Shown here piece by piece: positions 16,792 through 29,370 of a DNA stretch of 64,000 nt. The DNA comes from Thermincola carboxydiphila (GTDB taxonomy: Bacteria > Bacillota > Thermincolia > Thermincolales > UBA2595). Location of the stretch: the NCBI GenBank assembly GCA_016841325.1, contig JAENZJ010000009.1:1-64000 (forward strand), written 5' to 3'. The notes under the pieces were generated by a model that saw only the letters and a list, made by a program, of their open reading frames with translations, was not told the origin of the DNA and did no database searches. Each line of letters opens with the position of its first letter. Within the stretch, counting starts at the first letter, position 1. The position numbers and the translations under genes are program-made.

Positions 16792-16862
16792 GGTTACCTT
16801 CTGTTTTGGGTTTACATAAACTAAACTATATTTACAAATAAATTATCAGCAGAGGTGATATC

Positions 16863-18197
16863 ATGGCATATCATGATGTTTTACTGATTAATCCGCCGTC
16901 AAGGCAGAGGGAGTTTTATGAGCACCTTGGGTTGGGCTACCTGGCAGCCTGTCTTAGGAAACAAAACGTTGATGTTAAGATCCTGAATATGCCTCATTGG
17001 ATGGCCCCCCGGGCCTTACAGGAGGTTAAGAAGTATTCCTGCAAGTTAGTTGGAATCAGTGTTCCATTTCAGAGGAGTGCAGTACAGGCCTTTAATTTTA
17101 TCTCCCGTCTCAAAAGAGAGGGTTTTGAGACTGCACATGTGGCGATAGGCGGCATCTATCCCTCTTTTGCTTATGAGGAGATTTTGAGCCAATTTCCCGT
17201 TGTGGATTCGGTTGTTATCGGTGAAGGTGAAGAAACCATAGTAGAGCTGGCAGAAGCAATAATCAGCGGCAGTAACTGGAAGAAAATCAGTGGGATAGCG
17301 TTCCGGGAGAATAAAGATATAGTGACAACAGAACTGCGCCCCCTTATTGAGGACCTGGATGCCATCCCTTTTCCGGAACGCGATGCCCTGCCGGAAGTAC
17401 TGGAAAAACTGGAACATGCACCGGTCCTTTCGTCACGGGGCTGTTACGGCAGGTGCACCTTTTGCAGTGTGGTGCCGTTCTTTAAAAAGTTCGGCCCATC
17501 GCTGCGTATGCGTAGCAGTGCCAACGTGATTGAAGAACTGGAGTTCTTGTCCAAAAAATACGGAGTCAGAAATGTGGATTTTAATGATGCCAATTTTATT
17601 GGCGGGAAGGGACGCGGAGCTCGCAGGGCACAGGAGATTGCGGAACTGATGCAGAAAAAAAACCTGAACATAAAGTTTGGCATCCAGTGCAGACCAAATG
17701 AGATCGATTTGGAGCTCTTCACTATTTTAAAAAGAGCGGGTCTCAGCAAAGTTTTTGTTGGAATAGAATCAGGCTCACAGGCAATGCTGGACCGGTTTCA
17801 GAAAGATATCACAGTTGCAGAAAACCTGAAGGCCCTGGAAATTTTAAGCAAACTGGATCTAATTACATATATGGGATTTATAACCTTTGACGATAGGACC
17901 ACAATACATGAATATAATGAGAACATGGCATTTATTGAGAAGGCCAAAAAACTGATGCCGCAAAACAGGCTTTTTTATGACCTGGGAACCAAACTTCTTC
18001 CCCTGGCCGGAACAGATGCCGAAAAAAACATGAAGGAAAGGGGAATTTTAGTTGGAAATTCCCTGAAATTTGATTATAAAATGGATGACCTCAAAATGAA
18101 TTATATTTACAGCGCCATAAAGATTAAGGAAGATATAACCCGAATTGGGAGAAAGGTCAGGGAAACCGATAAGGAATGGACAAAAGATCAGCCTTAA
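16863..18197 (+). CDS. B12-binding-domain radical SAM protein
   Basis: Protein of 444 residues. Residues 1-140 form a cobalamin-binding-like Rossmann domain (VLLINPPSRQREFYEHLGLG and AIGGIYPSFAYEEIL); the classic DxHxxG histidine motif is not seen, as in many BchE-like members. The radical SAM cluster cysteines are C194, C198 and C201 (CYGRCTFC). The barrel continues to about 410. It is a stand-alone gene with CAGAGGTGAT before the ATG. Related proteins make methylations, ring closures or hopanoid changes. The neighbours do not identify the substrate. Confidence 0.85.
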   Translation: MAYHDVLLINPPSRQREFYEHLGLGYLAACLRKQNVDVKILNMPHWMAPRALQEVKKYSCKLVGISVPFQRSAVQAFNFISRLKREGFETAHVAIGGIYPSFAYEEILSQFPVVDSVVIGEGEETIVELAEAIISGSNWKKISGIAFRENKDIVTTELRPLIEDLDAIPFPERDALPEVLEKLEHAPVLSSRGCYGRCTFCSVVPFFKKFGPSLRMRSSANVIEELEFLSKKYGVRNVDFNDANFIGGKGRGARRAQEIAELMQKKNLNIKFGIQCRPNEIDLELFTILKRAGLSKVFVGIESGSQAMLDRFQKDITVAENLKALEILSKLDLITYMGFITFDDRTTIHEYNENMAFIEKAKKLMPQNRLFYDLGTKLLPLAGTDAEKNMKERGILVGNSLKFDYKMDDLKMNYIYSAIKIKEDITRIGRKVRETDKEWTKDQP

Positions 18198-21249: not shown

Positions 21250-21277
21250 ACCTTTCTTAAAGCCTTAACATAAGATT
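21250..21277 (+). promoter_or_regulatory. Sigma-K-like promoter of mini-protein gene 1
   Basis: AC (21250) lies 17 bases before CATAAGATT (21269). Sigma-K promoters have AC, 16-17 bases, then CATANNNTA. The last two -10 bases deviate. Same spacing as three promoters downstream. Confidence 0.45.
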
Positions 21278-21337: not shown

Positions 21338-21436
21338 ATGTCTGTTAATACCCAGCAATGGGGATGGACCGCACCGTTTTTCCTGTTCCTGATCCTTATC
21401 CTTCTGTGGGGAGGAGTAGACGGCGGTTTCTGGTAA
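21338..21436 (+). CDS. Mini membrane protein 1 of a seven-member tandem family
   Basis: Peptide of 32 residues. A polar head ends in QQWGWTA. A membrane core PFFLFLILILLW follows, and the tail is GGVDGGFW. GAAGGAGGG precedes the start; an in-frame ATG at 21332 would add two residues and sits closer to the ribosome binding site. The core is shared with members 2-5 and 7, often with identical wording, so the genes arose by tandem duplication. The size and Gly/Trp tail loosely recall small spore proteins such as YjcZ/SscA, but no family is confirmed. The upstream promoter looks sigma-K-like, suggesting late mother-cell expression. Confidence 0.8.
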   Translation: MSVNTQQWGWTAPFFLFLILILLWGGVDGGFW

Positions 21437-21489
21437 TAACCGACAAAAAACCATATGTAAATATATCAAGCAGAAAGGAGGGTATTTAG

Positions 21490-21591
21490 ATGGCTGATGC
21501 GAGATCCCAGGAATTTGGTTGGACCGCACCGTTTTTTCTCTTCCTGATCCTGATTCTTCTGTGGGCAGGGGTAGACGGCGGATTTTGGTAA
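21490..21591 (+). CDS. Mini membrane protein 2 of the tandem family
   Basis: Peptide of 33 residues: head MADARSQEFGWTA, core PFFLFLILILLW, tail AGVDGGFW. AAAGGAGGG lies about eight bases upstream of the ATG. The gene lies 53 bases after member 1 with no terminator between, so they are probably cotranscribed. The head contains the SQE(F/W)G motif also seen in member 4. Confidence 0.8.
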   Translation: MADARSQEFGWTAPFFLFLILILLWAGVDGGFW

Positions 21592-21607
21592 AATTGGCCG
21601 GTTATGA

Positions 21608-21635
21608 ACACTTTGGGAGATATGTTCATAGTATA
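21608..21635 (+). promoter_or_regulatory. Sigma-K-like promoter of mini-protein gene 3
   Basis: AC (21608) lies 17 bases before CATAGTATA (21627), an exact match to CATANNNTA. It is 58 bases upstream of the ATG. Confidence 0.55.
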
Positions 21636-21692
21636 CCAGAAAGGTCGGCAATTTAAATAACTATTAAACTATTTAGTAAAGGGGGACCTAAA

Positions 21693-21791
21693 ATGGCAGA
21701 CGGATTCTTTGGAGGCGGCGCTACTTTCCCGTTTTTCCTGTTTCTGATTCTGATACTCCTGTGGGGAGGAGTAGACGGCGGTTTCTGGTAA
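21693..21791 (+). CDS. Mini membrane protein 3 of the tandem family
   Basis: Peptide of 32 residues. The head is Gly-rich (MADGFFGGGATF) rather than the SQxWG type, the core is again PFFLFLILILLW and the tail is GGVDGGFW. GGGGGACC lies nine or ten bases before the ATG. It has its own sigma-K-like promoter and is followed by a terminator, so it forms a one-gene unit. Confidence 0.8.
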   Translation: MADGFFGGGATFPFFLFLILILLWGGVDGGFW

Positions 21792-21834
21792 AAATACCCG
21801 CTGTTAAACTGATATAGTAAATATATCCCTATTA

Positions 21835-21869
21835 TCAAACCCGCTTTATTATTGAGCGGGTTTGATTTA
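21835..21869 (+). terminator. Terminator after mini-protein gene 3
   Basis: TCAAACCCGCT pairs perfectly with AGCGGGTTTGA, followed by TTTAT. Confidence 0.75.
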
Positions 21870-21887
21870 TCAATGTGCTGCCAATGA

Positions 21888-21915
21888 ACCTTTTAAGCAA
21901 TATAAACATAGTATG
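21888..21915 (+). promoter_or_regulatory. Sigma-K-like promoter of mini-protein gene 4
   Basis: AC (21888), 17 bases, CATAGTATG (21907). The wording GAACCTTT around the -35 is shared with the promoter of gene 6. Confidence 0.5.
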
Positions 21916-21979
21916 TAGCGAAGGTCGATAGATTTTGTACCCCGAAATTTTATAGTGTTCCTGAAAGGAGGTAAAAAGA

Positions 21980-22081
21980 ATGGCCGATTTTAAGTCCCAG
22001 GAATGGGGAGCAACAGCTCCATTTTTCCTCTTCCTGATTCTCATTCTCCTGTGGGCGGGAGTTGATGGCGGCTGGTGGTAG
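21980..22081 (+). CDS. Mini membrane protein 4 of the tandem family
   Basis: Peptide of 33 residues: head MADFKSQEWGATA, core PFFLFLILILLW, tail AGVDGGWW. AAAGGAGG lies about ten bases before the ATG. It is preceded by a terminator and a sigma-K-like promoter, so it starts its own unit. Codons differ from members 1-3 at many third positions although the protein core is identical, which points to selection on the peptide rather than a very recent copy. Confidence 0.8.
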   Translation: MADFKSQEWGATAPFFLFLILILLWAGVDGGWW

Positions 22082-22134
22082 AAACCGAACATTAAAGCAA
22101 TACTAAGCACGTCATAGTCAAACCGGTAATGAAA

Positions 22135-22155
22135 GCCCCGGATTCGTTCCGGGGC
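22135..22155 (+). terminator. Hairpin between mini-protein genes 4 and 5
   Basis: GCCCCGGA pairs with TCCGGGGC around a five-base loop. There is no T-run, so readthrough into gene 5 is likely. Confidence 0.4.
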
Positions 22156-22187
22156 CAGAACCATAAGAGAGGAGGCGAATGTATTAA

Positions 22188-22280
22188 ATGGCTGACGGGT
22201 GTGGAGCAGGCGCTAATTTCCCCTTTTTCCTTTTCCTGATTCTGATCCTCCTTTGGTCAGGAGTAGACGGATGCTGGTGA
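22188..22280 (+). CDS. Mini membrane protein 5 of the tandem family
   Basis: Peptide of 30 residues with a Gly-rich head carrying a cysteine (MADGCGAGANF), the common core PFFLFLILILLW and a tail SGVDGCW with a second cysteine. The two cysteines on opposite sides of the membrane segment are unique in the family. AGGAGGCGAA lies about twelve bases before the ATG. No clear promoter of the AC-N17-CATA type is seen in front, so it may be read from the gene 4 promoter through the hairpin. Confidence 0.78.
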   Translation: MADGCGAGANFPFFLFLILILLWSGVDGCW

Positions 22281-22289
22281 TAGCTTTCT

Positions 22290-22323
22290 ATATCCGCTTC
22301 CTTAGTGAAGCGGATATTAATTT
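22290..22323 (+). terminator. Terminator after mini-protein gene 5
   Basis: ATATCCGCTTC pairs perfectly with GAAGCGGATAT around six bases, followed by TAATTT. Confidence 0.75.
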
Positions 22324-22374
22324 ACTCCAGGAAAGCATATTTAGCCCATTTTAAGAAATGTGGAACATTCATGA

Positions 22375-22402
22375 ACCTTTCAACATCAGCTGACATAATA
22401 TA
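22375..22402 (+). promoter_or_regulatory. Sigma-K-like promoter of mini-protein gene 6
   Basis: AC (22375), 17 bases, CATAATATA (22394), an exact match to CATANNNTA with GAACCTTT at the -35. Confidence 0.55.
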
Positions 22403-22461
22403 TAGCAAAGACCCGGGTCACACTATCAAAATTTTCATGGTCAACGGAAGGAGGGTCTTAG

Positions 22462-22551
22462 ATGGCACGCACACAATGGGGCGGAGGCTTTTTTGGCATA
22501 TTTTTCCTATTCATCATTTTATGGCTTTTCTTTGGAGGACAATGGTGGTAA
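22462..22551 (+). CDS. Divergent mini membrane protein 6
   Basis: Peptide of 29 residues: MARTQWGGGFFGIF then FLFIILWLFFGGQWW. It keeps the layout (short polar head, one membrane segment, Gly and Trp tail) but not the exact core, so it is the most divergent member. GGAAGGAGGG lies twelve bases before the ATG. A longer overlapping frame (22305-22568) is in another phase and lacks a ribosome binding site. It has a sigma-K-like promoter and may be cotranscribed with gene 7. Confidence 0.72.
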   Translation: MARTQWGGGFFGIFFLFIILWLFFGGQWW

Positions 22552-22609
22552 TAACAAGCATGAATTAAAATGTACCCGCCTCAATTAAATCTGAAAGGAG
22601 GTTGAATAA

Positions 22610-22708
22610 ATGGCTGATGTTAAATCTCAACAATGGGGATGGACCGCACCGTTTTTCCTCTTCCTGATTCTGATCCTTCTGTGGGGAGGAGTAGACGGAG
22701 GTTGCTAG
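22610..22708 (+). CDS. Mini membrane protein 7 of the tandem family
   Basis: Peptide of 32 residues: head MADVKSQQWGWTA, core PFFLFLILILLW, tail GGVDGGC. The tail ends in Cys and a TAG where members 1-3 read Phe-Trp-stop, so the last residue is lost by point mutation. AAAGGAGG lies about ten bases before the ATG. The head and core are closest to member 1. No terminator separates it from gene 6. Confidence 0.78.
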   Translation: MADVKSQQWGWTAPFFLFLILILLWGGVDGGC

Positions 22709-22746: not shown

Positions 22747-22775
22747 AGCCCACTTCCAGCTGTATGGAGTGGGCT
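22747..22775 (+). terminator. Hairpin after mini-protein gene 7
   Basis: AGCCCACT pairs perfectly with AGTGGGCT around 13 bases. The following sequence is A/T-rich without a strict T-run. Confidence 0.5.
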
Positions 22776-22815: not shown

Positions 22816-23136
22816 ATGAGCAGTACCCTTTTCGGTCCGGACCTGCCGCCGCTGATTAAAGGTGTGAAGCCTTATCTGCCGGAAAAAGCCCAATACCTTG
22901 CGGATGGCGTACTGAGTCTCATTGAACTGGTAACAAGCAGGCCGGCACAGGAGGCTGCACAAAAAATGAACCGGCTGTTCCAACTGCCTGGTCAAAAATC
23001 AGTTACAATTGATACATCCCTGGGCCCCATTACCCTTTCCCTGGACTCTGCATTCCTGCTATTTTTGATCCTGATTCTACTGATTCTGTCAGGCAATATC
23101 CTGACTATCGGCGCCGGGATATCAGATAATCCTTAA
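22816..23136 (+). CDS. Membrane protein with a C-terminal segment like the mini-proteins
   Basis: Protein of 106 residues. Residues 1-70 are soluble and helical (LIKGVKPYLPEKAQYLADGV, then PAQEAAQKMNRLFQLPGQ). Residues about 78-96 form one membrane segment, FLLFLILILLILSG, which closely echoes the PFFLFLILILLW core of the seven mini-proteins. TAGGAGGTAA precedes the ATG. It ends the cluster at a strong terminator. No known domain is recognised; it may share a partner or location with the mini-proteins. Confidence 0.75.
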   Translation: MSSTLFGPDLPPLIKGVKPYLPEKAQYLADGVLSLIELVTSRPAQEAAQKMNRLFQLPGQKSVTIDTSLGPITLSLDSAFLLFLILILLILSGNILTIGAGISDNP

Positions 23137-23212: not shown

Positions 23213-23596
23213 TTAGTTGAGGGTGCCCCAGGTGCCTTGCAGGTTAGCATTGGCACCAAATCCACCCCTGAATCCTGCTCCGCCGCCGCCACAACCGGCA
23301 CCGGCTCCGTAACCACCGCAGCCGCCTCCGTTTCTAAAGCCGGCTCCCGGGAGGATGTTGTTTTCCTGGCGGTACTGTTCAGCCTGGTCCATCCTGTCCT
23401 TGATTGCCTGTCCCTGGTCAGAGGTGATCTCTCCTGACTCCACATACTTGTCTACCATCTGCTTCCTGAGTTCGAGAATCTGTTTGTGCAGGTCAAGAAT
23501 ATCTTGTTTCTGGGTATCTGTAAGGGCTGCAAAAGCCGGTACGGCAAAGGCCAGGACCAAAACCGCGGTCAGGGCAATAAGTAGTTTCTTTTTCAT
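23213..23596 (-). CDS. Exported DUF2680 (YckD-like) protein with Gly-rich tail
   Basis: Protein of 127 residues. Residues 1-24 are a signal peptide (KKKLLIALTAVLVLAF, then AFAA). Residues 26-75 are a helical DUF2680 region (LTDTQKQDILDLHKQILELR, then DRMDQAEQYRQ). The tail is rich in Gly, Ala and Phe with two cysteines. The start is at 23596, where GGAGGTGAC lies about seven bases upstream; a frame extended to 23635 lacks support. The protein acts outside the membrane. DUF2680 proteins are common in spore formers but have no known role. A palindrome lies 55 bases upstream. Confidence 0.8.
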   Translation of the reverse strand: MKKKLLIALTAVLVLAFAVPAFAALTDTQKQDILDLHKQILELRKQMVDKYVESGEITSDQGQAIKDRMDQAEQYRQENNILPGAGFRNGGGCGGYGAGAGCGGGGAGFRGGFGANANLQGTWGTLN

Positions 23597-23650
23597 GTCA
23601 ATTGTCACCTCCCTTCTCCGCAGTATAAGTATCACCGGGTTGCTGTTTCT

Positions 23651-28010: not shown

Positions 28011-28793
28011 TCAGGATGCGAAATTTACGGCAAGGACATCATTGGTGATGACGTCTCCTGCCCGCAGCTGCTCCCTGATGCTGCCCACCCTGCGGTCGAT
28101 TTCAAGGAGGTTCTGGGCAGCCCTGATTTCCACTTCATTTTGGTACAGCACCTTCTTAACAGCCCCGTTTTCAATTATAATCCGTTTCTTGGTCAGGAGT
28201 GCAATCACCGGGTCGTGAGTTACAAAAACAATAATTTTCCCGGTATCTTTAATTATGTCGATGACCTCCTGTTTGAAGATACCGGCATTTTCAATCTCGT
28301 CCAGGAGTATGATGGGCGCTGCTCCAATCATAATAGCATCTGCAATCAGGAGGGACCTTGTCTGTCCTCCGGAAAGAATAGTTACCTTTGTGTCTTTATG
28401 AATTTTTTCACCAGTAAAACTGTTGGCCAGGTTTATAGTTTCAGGAATCACTGCACTGTCGGTAATTCCACGGGCACGGGCATGAATCTCTAGGAACTCT
28501 TCTGTAGTTAGGTCTGCGAAACATTTGGTATTCTGAGTAATCATAGCTATGGGTTTAAGTGAAGGGTTATACCTGATGTCATCTATAGGGTGAGTTCCGT
28601 TAACCAGAACAGTTCGGCCGGTGGAGGTATCTCCCTGGGCCAGCAGCTCAATATCAGTAATAAAAGCGGTTTTTCCGCTTCCTGTGGGGCCGACAATAGA
28701 TACGGTTTCTCCTGCCCTTAATGTAATTTCAGTGAAGTTTTCCCTTACATTTAGTTTATCTGTACCGGGAAGAATTGTGATTTCTCTGAGCAT
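28011..28793 (-). CDS. Stand-alone ABC-type ATPase of a cofactor-maturation-like operon
   Basis: Protein of 260 residues. Walker A is GPTGSGKTAF (near residue 35), the Q-loop is MITQNTK, the signature is LSGGQTRSLL, Walker B is PIILLDEIEN and the switch histidine is in VTHDP. No membrane partner is encoded nearby, and a C-terminal extension of about 50 residues (EVEIRAAQNLLEIDRRVGS) follows the core. It opens a three-gene minus-strand operon with the GTPase and the 4Fe-4S protein. In function it may resemble soluble ABC ATPases such as AtwA, which activates methyl-CoM reductase, rather than a transporter; this is an analogy only. GAGAGGAGAG precedes the ATG. Confidence 0.72.
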   Translation of the reverse strand: MLREITILPGTDKLNVRENFTEITLRAGETVSIVGPTGSGKTAFITDIELLAQGDTSTGRTVLVNGTHPIDDIRYNPSLKPIAMITQNTKCFADLTTEEFLEIHARARGITDSAVIPETINLANSFTGEKIHKDTKVTILSGGQTRSLLIADAIMIGAAPIILLDEIENAGIFKQEVIDIIKDTGKIIVFVTHDPVIALLTKKRIIIENGAVKKVLYQNEVEIRAAQNLLEIDRRVGSIREQLRAGDVITNDVLAVNFAS

Positions 28794-28917
28794 AAGTTCT
28801 CTCCTCTCAACAATTTATTTCCTGCAGTCTAAACTATGTATTATGTATTCGAAAGGTTACTTTTAAAGGCAGGTAATTTGAGGCTATTTAGAAAAACTGG
28901 ATGCTGTTTCCTTGAAA

Positions 28918-29037: not shown

Positions 29038-29370
29038 TTAGTAAGTGCTTACATATTGTCCGGTTGGTCCGAACTGGGCGGTATTGATTGGACGGTTAGC
29101 CCAACTGCTGGTAGTAATTGAACCCTGATACGGGGATCCAAATTGCTGCCCCACGGTGCCGAACTGAACACTGCTCATCATTGACTGCATCTGTGAAGCT
29201 ACCTGTTGGCAAAGCTGGGCAGCTTGCTGCAGCTGCTGGGCCGCGTTGCGCTCAGACTGCTCAATCTGGTGCAGCTGGGTTGCGTGAGCGCTCTCGCTCT
29301 GGCTCAGCTGGTTACAAATTTGAGCAATCTGGTTCAGGCTGCTCTGAATCTGACTGACTTGTGAATACAT
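29038..29370 (-). CDS. Small Gln/Ser-rich coiled-coil protein
   Basis: Protein of 110 residues without signal peptide or cysteine-rich domain (two Cys only). Residues 5-75 form a helix with regular spacing of Gln, Ser and hydrophobic residues (IAQICNQLSQSESAHATQLH). Residues 76-110 are Gly, Ser, Thr and Tyr rich (TSSWANRPINTAQFGPTGQY). The composition resembles spore-coat or exosporium structural proteins, but no family is recognised. GGAGGTG lies about eleven bases before the ATG. It is a single-gene unit with its own terminator. Confidence 0.65.
   Translation of the reverse strand: MYSQVSQIQSSLNQIAQICNQLSQSESAHATQLHQIEQSERNAAQQLQQAAQLCQQVASQMQSMMSSVQFGTVGQQFGSPYQGSITTSSWANRPINTAQFGPTGQYVSTY

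Follow-up and report, generated by a model that had tools for sequence, protein, structure and literature searches.

A tandem array of seven genes for peptides of 29-33 residues, at positions 21338-22708 (+) of the window (the whole 64,000-nucleotide stretch of Thermincola carboxydiphila DNA analysed here), probably encodes structural peptides that the mother cell would add to the spore envelope late in sporulation, under sigma-K. Clostridia-like spore formers commonly carry the family to which these peptides belong, and its genes have sigma-K type promoters; these two features together make the spore envelope the family's most likely destination, as is thought for YjcZ. By analogy, the best reading of the array family is as a clostridial counterpart of Bacillus YjcZ. 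Most of the coat morphogenetic proteins of Bacillus are missing in clostridia, and clostridial coat assembly is poorly understood for that reason (PMC5607322). A multicopy family with promoters of sigma-K type that matches no Pfam, NCBIfam or PHROGs model and turns up in roughly one of every four phylum genomes sampled provides concrete candidates for the clostridial coat, and its genes are so small that gene finding can skip them.

The array and its members

The list of open reading frames and their translations give seven tandem genes, all on the forward strand, and such an array is far beyond chance. As the first-pass annotation had described, the genes lie in a row and each has a strong ribosome binding site, here a GGAGG- or GGGGG-type Shine-Dalgarno sequence shortly 5' of the ATG. 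From its sequence, each product is predicted to be a single hydrophobic helix. The common core PFFLFLILILLW, followed by the tail GVDG, is invariant in six of the seven peptides: those of gene 1 (21338..21436, 32 aa, MSVNTQQWGWTAPFFLFLILILLWGGVDGGFW), gene 2 (21490..21591, 33 aa, MADARSQEFGWTAPFFLFLILILLWAGVDGGFW), gene 3 (21693..21791, 32 aa, MADGFFGGGATFPFFLFLILILLWGGVDGGFW), gene 4 (21980..22081, 33 aa, MADFKSQEWGATAPFFLFLILILLWAGVDGGWW), gene 5 (22188..22280, 30 aa, MADGCGAGANFPFFLFLILILLWSGVDGCW) and gene 7 (22610..22708, 32 aa, MADVKSQQWGWTAPFFLFLILILLWGGVDGGC). Gene 1 has a second in-frame ATG two codons upstream, which is too near its own Shine-Dalgarno site. The product of gene 6 (22462..22551, 29 aa, MARTQWGGGFFGIFFLFIILWLFFGGQWW) is the diverged member, with the same plan in other wording, and it has a counterpart in L023. 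The remaining details of that description also agree with the translations: the heads are of two types, SQxWG and Gly-rich, a cysteine pair occurs only in gene 5, and the final Trp is absent from gene 7, which in addition has one Cys.

Two congeneric genomes have orthologous arrays at the same place, where they too adjoin the radical-SAM and methyltransferase genes; one has 5 copies, the other 7 or 8 if copies cut by an assembly gap are counted. Pooled over the orthologues in these two sister species, pS is 0.35 and pN 0.05 (ratio 0.14); among the paralogues within the window the values are 0.60 and 0.17 (ratio 0.28). Synonymous changes predominate both across species and across copies, so it is the peptide that is conserved and not the DNA, and this pattern indicates that the array peptides are under purifying selection. 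Third-position codon differences had led the first-pass annotation to the same view, and the paralogue ratio is far from the dN/dS near one between copies that it had named as evidence to the contrary. For gene 6 there is a single orthologue, with dN/dS 0.32, and the evidence of selection is therefore weaker. One array copy in genome G005 runs into N letters, and in L023 (4934-5050, -) an additional, incomplete gene 3 ends in an N run, probably where the assembly has a gap within the repeats.

Sigma-K type promoters

The promoters supply the strongest new evidence for the reading given above. Sigma-K and sigma-E promoters have similar -10 boxes and are distinguished at -35, where AC marks sigma-K and ATA marks sigma-E (PMC3789822; see also PMC517825). 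The array carries the sigma-K elements (-35 AC, a spacer of 16-17 nt, -10 CATAnnnT) at four sites, all on the forward strand. Three of them, upstream of gene 1 (21250..21276), gene 3 (21608..21634) and gene 4 (21888..21914), are conserved in both sister species, the one at gene 3 with spacer 16, and the fourth, upstream of gene 6 (22375..22401), is a sequence motif in the window. In the sister species AC-N16/17-CATAnnAT is found nowhere else on that strand in 10 kb. The promoter motif was not recognised upstream of genes 2, 5 and 7, nor upstream of the longer gene that follows the array, which we call the long partner.

The same motif precedes family genes in other genomes. Its strict form, AC-N16/17-CATAnnnT[AT], lies 5' of 34 of 89 of the short genes (minis), against 1.5 in shuffles; this set included two YjcZ-type genes and one long-partner fragment, and 86 genes remain when these are taken out. 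The loose form, AC-N16/17-CATA, is present at 58 of the 86 family genes and at 16 of 134 control genes, which were ordinary genes from the same loci (Fisher 2e-17). As a check on circularity, every CATAnnnT site that lay at a suitable distance was gathered without any requirement at -35, 60 in all. AC stands at spacer 17 in 57% of these and at spacer 16 in 35%, 92% together, and the sigma-E signature ATA gives no peak upstream of the 60 sites. The AC-N16/17-CATA sites upstream of the minis match the published sigma-K signature, and the motif holds in seven of the eight taxonomic families examined; three minis of the f113 lineage have none of the sigma-K motifs. The host genome encodes sigma-K, above the curated cut-off, as well as SpoIVA, and in vivo the array would be transcribed by sigma-K. 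Promoters had been the ground on which a role was first suggested for the array, and the strong enrichment of the sigma-K type, with three sites conserved, upholds that ground.

Three hairpins on the forward strand are possible terminators: a perfect 12-bp hairpin after gene 3 (21834..21866), which the terminator scan did not flag, a perfect 11-bp hairpin after gene 5 (22290..22317) and a further hairpin after gene 7 (22747..22775). We propose four transcription units, genes 1-2, 3, 4-5 and 6-7. Scans for sigma-70 promoters and for terminators found no excess over shuffles, and given the terminator result the four-unit division remains a proposal.

Promoter class also bears on two other readings of short hydrophobic peptides. 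Sigma-K type promoters and purifying selection on all copies make it very improbable that these are type I toxin-like or holin-like peptides that damage membranes, even though many type I toxins are likewise short, hydrophobic and tandem; phage and plasmid searches and PHROGs yielded no match, and no antisense-RNA signal came to notice. We give almost no credence to the idea that the peptides are small subunits of a complex for respiration or transport. Single-helix subunits of such a size exist and the host genome is rich in redox genes, but the family consists of scattered multicopy genes with sigma-K type promoters and has no consistent placement with respiratory or transport enzymes.

Distribution of the family and its core

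A profile of the array found relatives in 8 of 10 genomes of the class, and a broader profile, applied to a phylum-wide sample of 398 genomes, found the family in 95, with up to 12 genes in a single one. The first-pass annotation had regarded a lack of homologues as a point against its reading and had named clusters in spore formers only as support. They are found, and mostly there: spoIVA is present in 92 of the 95 positive genomes vs 334 of 398 overall (Fisher 1.2e-5, a p-value that is only a guide because related genomes are not independent). Two of the three positive genomes that lack spoIVA are MAGs, 61 and 75% complete, and in the remaining one, G252, there is a single weak match. By this count the family appears restricted to spore formers in the way that spore envelope proteins would be. 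In G009, a relative from the same order, a four-gene array adjoins the methyltransferase gene orthologous to that of the window (51% identity), which indicates that the genomic place of the array is old. In sister genera the family genes are mostly scattered single copies.

Scans of the array and its relatives against Pfam, NCBIfam and PHROGs matched no family model, and a literature search for the core string returned only an unrelated occurrence. We discarded weak matches to hydrophobic viral and other segments in the family scans as composition noise, and a weak C47 match in the array's own genome (14.5 bits, 40% identity, E 0.3) as chance. The first-pass annotation knew of no described family with this exact core. 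The wording PFFLFLILILLW is indeed specific to the genus, but the FxLFLILILL core is widespread and the family is less isolated than had been thought.

The family consensus is FAF[IV]LFLILILLFFGD. Among 54 distinct peptides that could be aligned by a strict core pattern, L stands at 263 of the 270 residues that make up the five core L positions, and each of the 108 residues at the two inner I positions is I or V. The core itself was the search profile, so this invariance is partly one of ascertainment and carries moderate weight. Ordinary membrane helices swap L, I and V more freely, and for this reason the near-fixed pattern suggests that the core helix packs in a specific way; it also lends itself to a testable model of helix packing. 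Heads and tails differ in charge, with 68 basic and 57 acidic residues in the heads of the family peptides and 8 basic and 58 acidic in the tails, and the positive-inside rule would orient the head towards the mother-cell cytoplasm. At L118 517-786, an otherwise unrelated charged protein of 89 aa has a family core at its C-terminus (AFVVFLILILLLFS), which suggests that the core helix is a module that can be joined to different heads.

The long partner

Directly after the array lies an eighth open reading frame (22816..23136, +), which the first-pass annotation had not connected with it. Its 106-aa product consists of an N-terminal region and a C-terminal SAFLLFLILILLILSG core, and ends in FLLFLILILLILSG, the core of the array. 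Sixteen homologues align through to the core. A structural model (overall pLDDT 61.5) places helices and a hairpin in the N-terminal region with low confidence and is more confident of a helix at the C-terminus; a sequence comparison with the PDB gave no significant match. A profile built from three homologues finds the long partner in 44 of the 398 genomes, 38 of which also have minis (Fisher 6e-21), an overlap for which the shared core and relatedness may partly account. That the link between the two is real is suggested by matches in the N-terminal region and by several distant genomes in which the long partner lies next to minis. A sigma-K type site is present at 9 of 17 long-partner genes. 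The host genome has a second long-partner copy near genes for YheC/D-like ATP-grasp, Mur-ligase and COOH.NH2-ligase proteins, and YheC/D-like ATP-grasp proteins are annotated as endospore coat-associated in Bacillus. For localisation, the long form would offer a larger handle than the minis.

Comparison with known sporulation peptides

In B. subtilis, yjcZ belongs to the sigma-K regulon (PMC517825). YjcZ of the Bacilli (PF09680, YjcZ_2) and the array family are alike in having about 30 aa, a head rich in Gly, a single helix that is uniformly hydrophobic and has Gly after it, multiple copies in a genome and sigma-K type promoters, the last judged for the array family by promoter sequence. YjcZ genes carry the strict sigma-K motif in 5 of 15 cases, against 0.34 by shuffle. 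The two families differ in the core, which is FALIVVLFILLIIVG in the array family vs FAFILFLILILLFFGD in YjcZ (LFLILILL, and not the VVLFILLII of YjcZ), and in the long form with an N-terminal region that the array family has. The PF09680 model leaves the array and its relatives unmatched, and none of 41 searched genomes, the host included, has a match above its curated cut-off. The array family and YjcZ are never found together in the 398 genomes, which may reflect replacement of one by the other between lineages, although just seven of these genomes have YjcZ at all.

One might ask whether the array peptides are true YjcZ homologues that have diverged beyond the reach of the Pfam model. The two families agree in length, plan, promoter class and the tendency to many copies, and a profile comparison (69% probability, score 24.7) exceeds all whole-column shuffles. 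But when the YjcZ helix columns were shuffled, 11 of 40 trials reached such a score, so we do not claim homology; together with the missing Pfam match and the 0 of 398 genomes that carry both, this makes common descent unlikely.

Other small mother-cell products allow a comparison by description. SpoVM is a single-copy spore coat peptide of 26 aa that forms an amphipathic surface helix, and SscA (YhzE) is a small mother-cell protein of coat or cortex assembly in Bacillus subtilis. SpoVM is transcribed early and acts as a tiny mother-cell sporulation peptide at the forespore surface, and CmpA, a small mother-cell protein that serves as a ClpXP adaptor, is confined to Bacillales (PMC5607322). 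The array peptides as read here would likewise be tiny mother-cell sporulation peptides, but unlike SpoVM they have a uniformly hydrophobic core, many copies and sigma-K type promoters. Their likeness to SscA and CmpA would be that of small mother-cell coat or cortex proteins.

Possible role in the spore envelope

If the array does supply structural peptides of the spore envelope, sigma-K RNA polymerase would transcribe it late in the mother cell from at least four promoters, and each gene would give a tiny one-helix peptide, in which a near-invariant FxLFLILILL helix joins a short polar or Gly-rich head to a brief tail of acidic residues and Gly. The peptides might then insert in the outer forespore membrane, or pack in a coat layer on top of that membrane, with the basic head facing the mother cell, and the fixed L/I pattern might let them associate laterally. 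They would be abundant and would serve as structural or anchoring elements of the envelope, and the long partner could dock its N-terminal region in the peptide layer through the same helix. Sequence gives the sporulation reading good support, since it shows the genes, the selection on them, the breadth of the family, its bias to spore formers and the promoter class. Translation of the peptides, their place in membrane or coat, the oligomer and the anchor role are all inferred from sequence. Many genomic neighbours of the minis are not sporulation genes, and we counted this against a role in the spore envelope, along with the genes of the window that have no recognised promoter, the f113 lineage and the low confidence of the long-partner model.

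We speculate further, and with some doubt, that there could be an unnamed clostridia-type spore envelope system in which the FxLFLILILL module, alone in the peptides and as a C-terminal anchor in longer proteins, drives proteins and lipids to assemble themselves into a layer on the outer forespore membrane and replaces YjcZ and other Bacillus-only coat factors.

Sigma-K peptides could also have a signalling or remodelling job, as adaptors of coat or cortex enzymes or in membrane remodelling during late engulfment or mother-cell lysis. There is a precedent for tiny sporulation proteins that are not structural, e.g. CmpA (PMC5607322), and in three genera a mini lies, by eye, between lipid-related-looking genes. 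We consider such a job unlikely, as multicopy arrays with near-identical cores are more in keeping with a component made in bulk than with a regulator, and the neighbours vary between lineages.

Neighbouring genes

The lipid-related-looking surroundings are those of L093 (2174), L099 (4597) and L102 (4521), where by eye the mini is flanked on one side by a zinc-dependent phospholipase C-like gene and on the other by an acetyltransferase-like and then an acyltransferase-like gene. Two distant genomes (at L105 and L068) have genes for patatin-like lipases only a few kb from minis; of the patatin-type neighbours noted by eye, a motif search recovered those of just two loci. Within the window, a sigma-K like site (16796-16822, +) lies 41 nt 5' of the gene at 16863 for a radical-SAM/B12-binding protein, a neighbour that the array keeps in the sister genomes. 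A second such site (28831-28857, -) is just upstream of an ABC ATPase gene (28011-28793, -) that adjoins a coiled-coil-like open reading frame of 110 aa (29038-29370, -). At the far end of the array, a Gly/Cys-rich secreted DUF2680 protein (23213-23635, -) is kept in both sister genomes.
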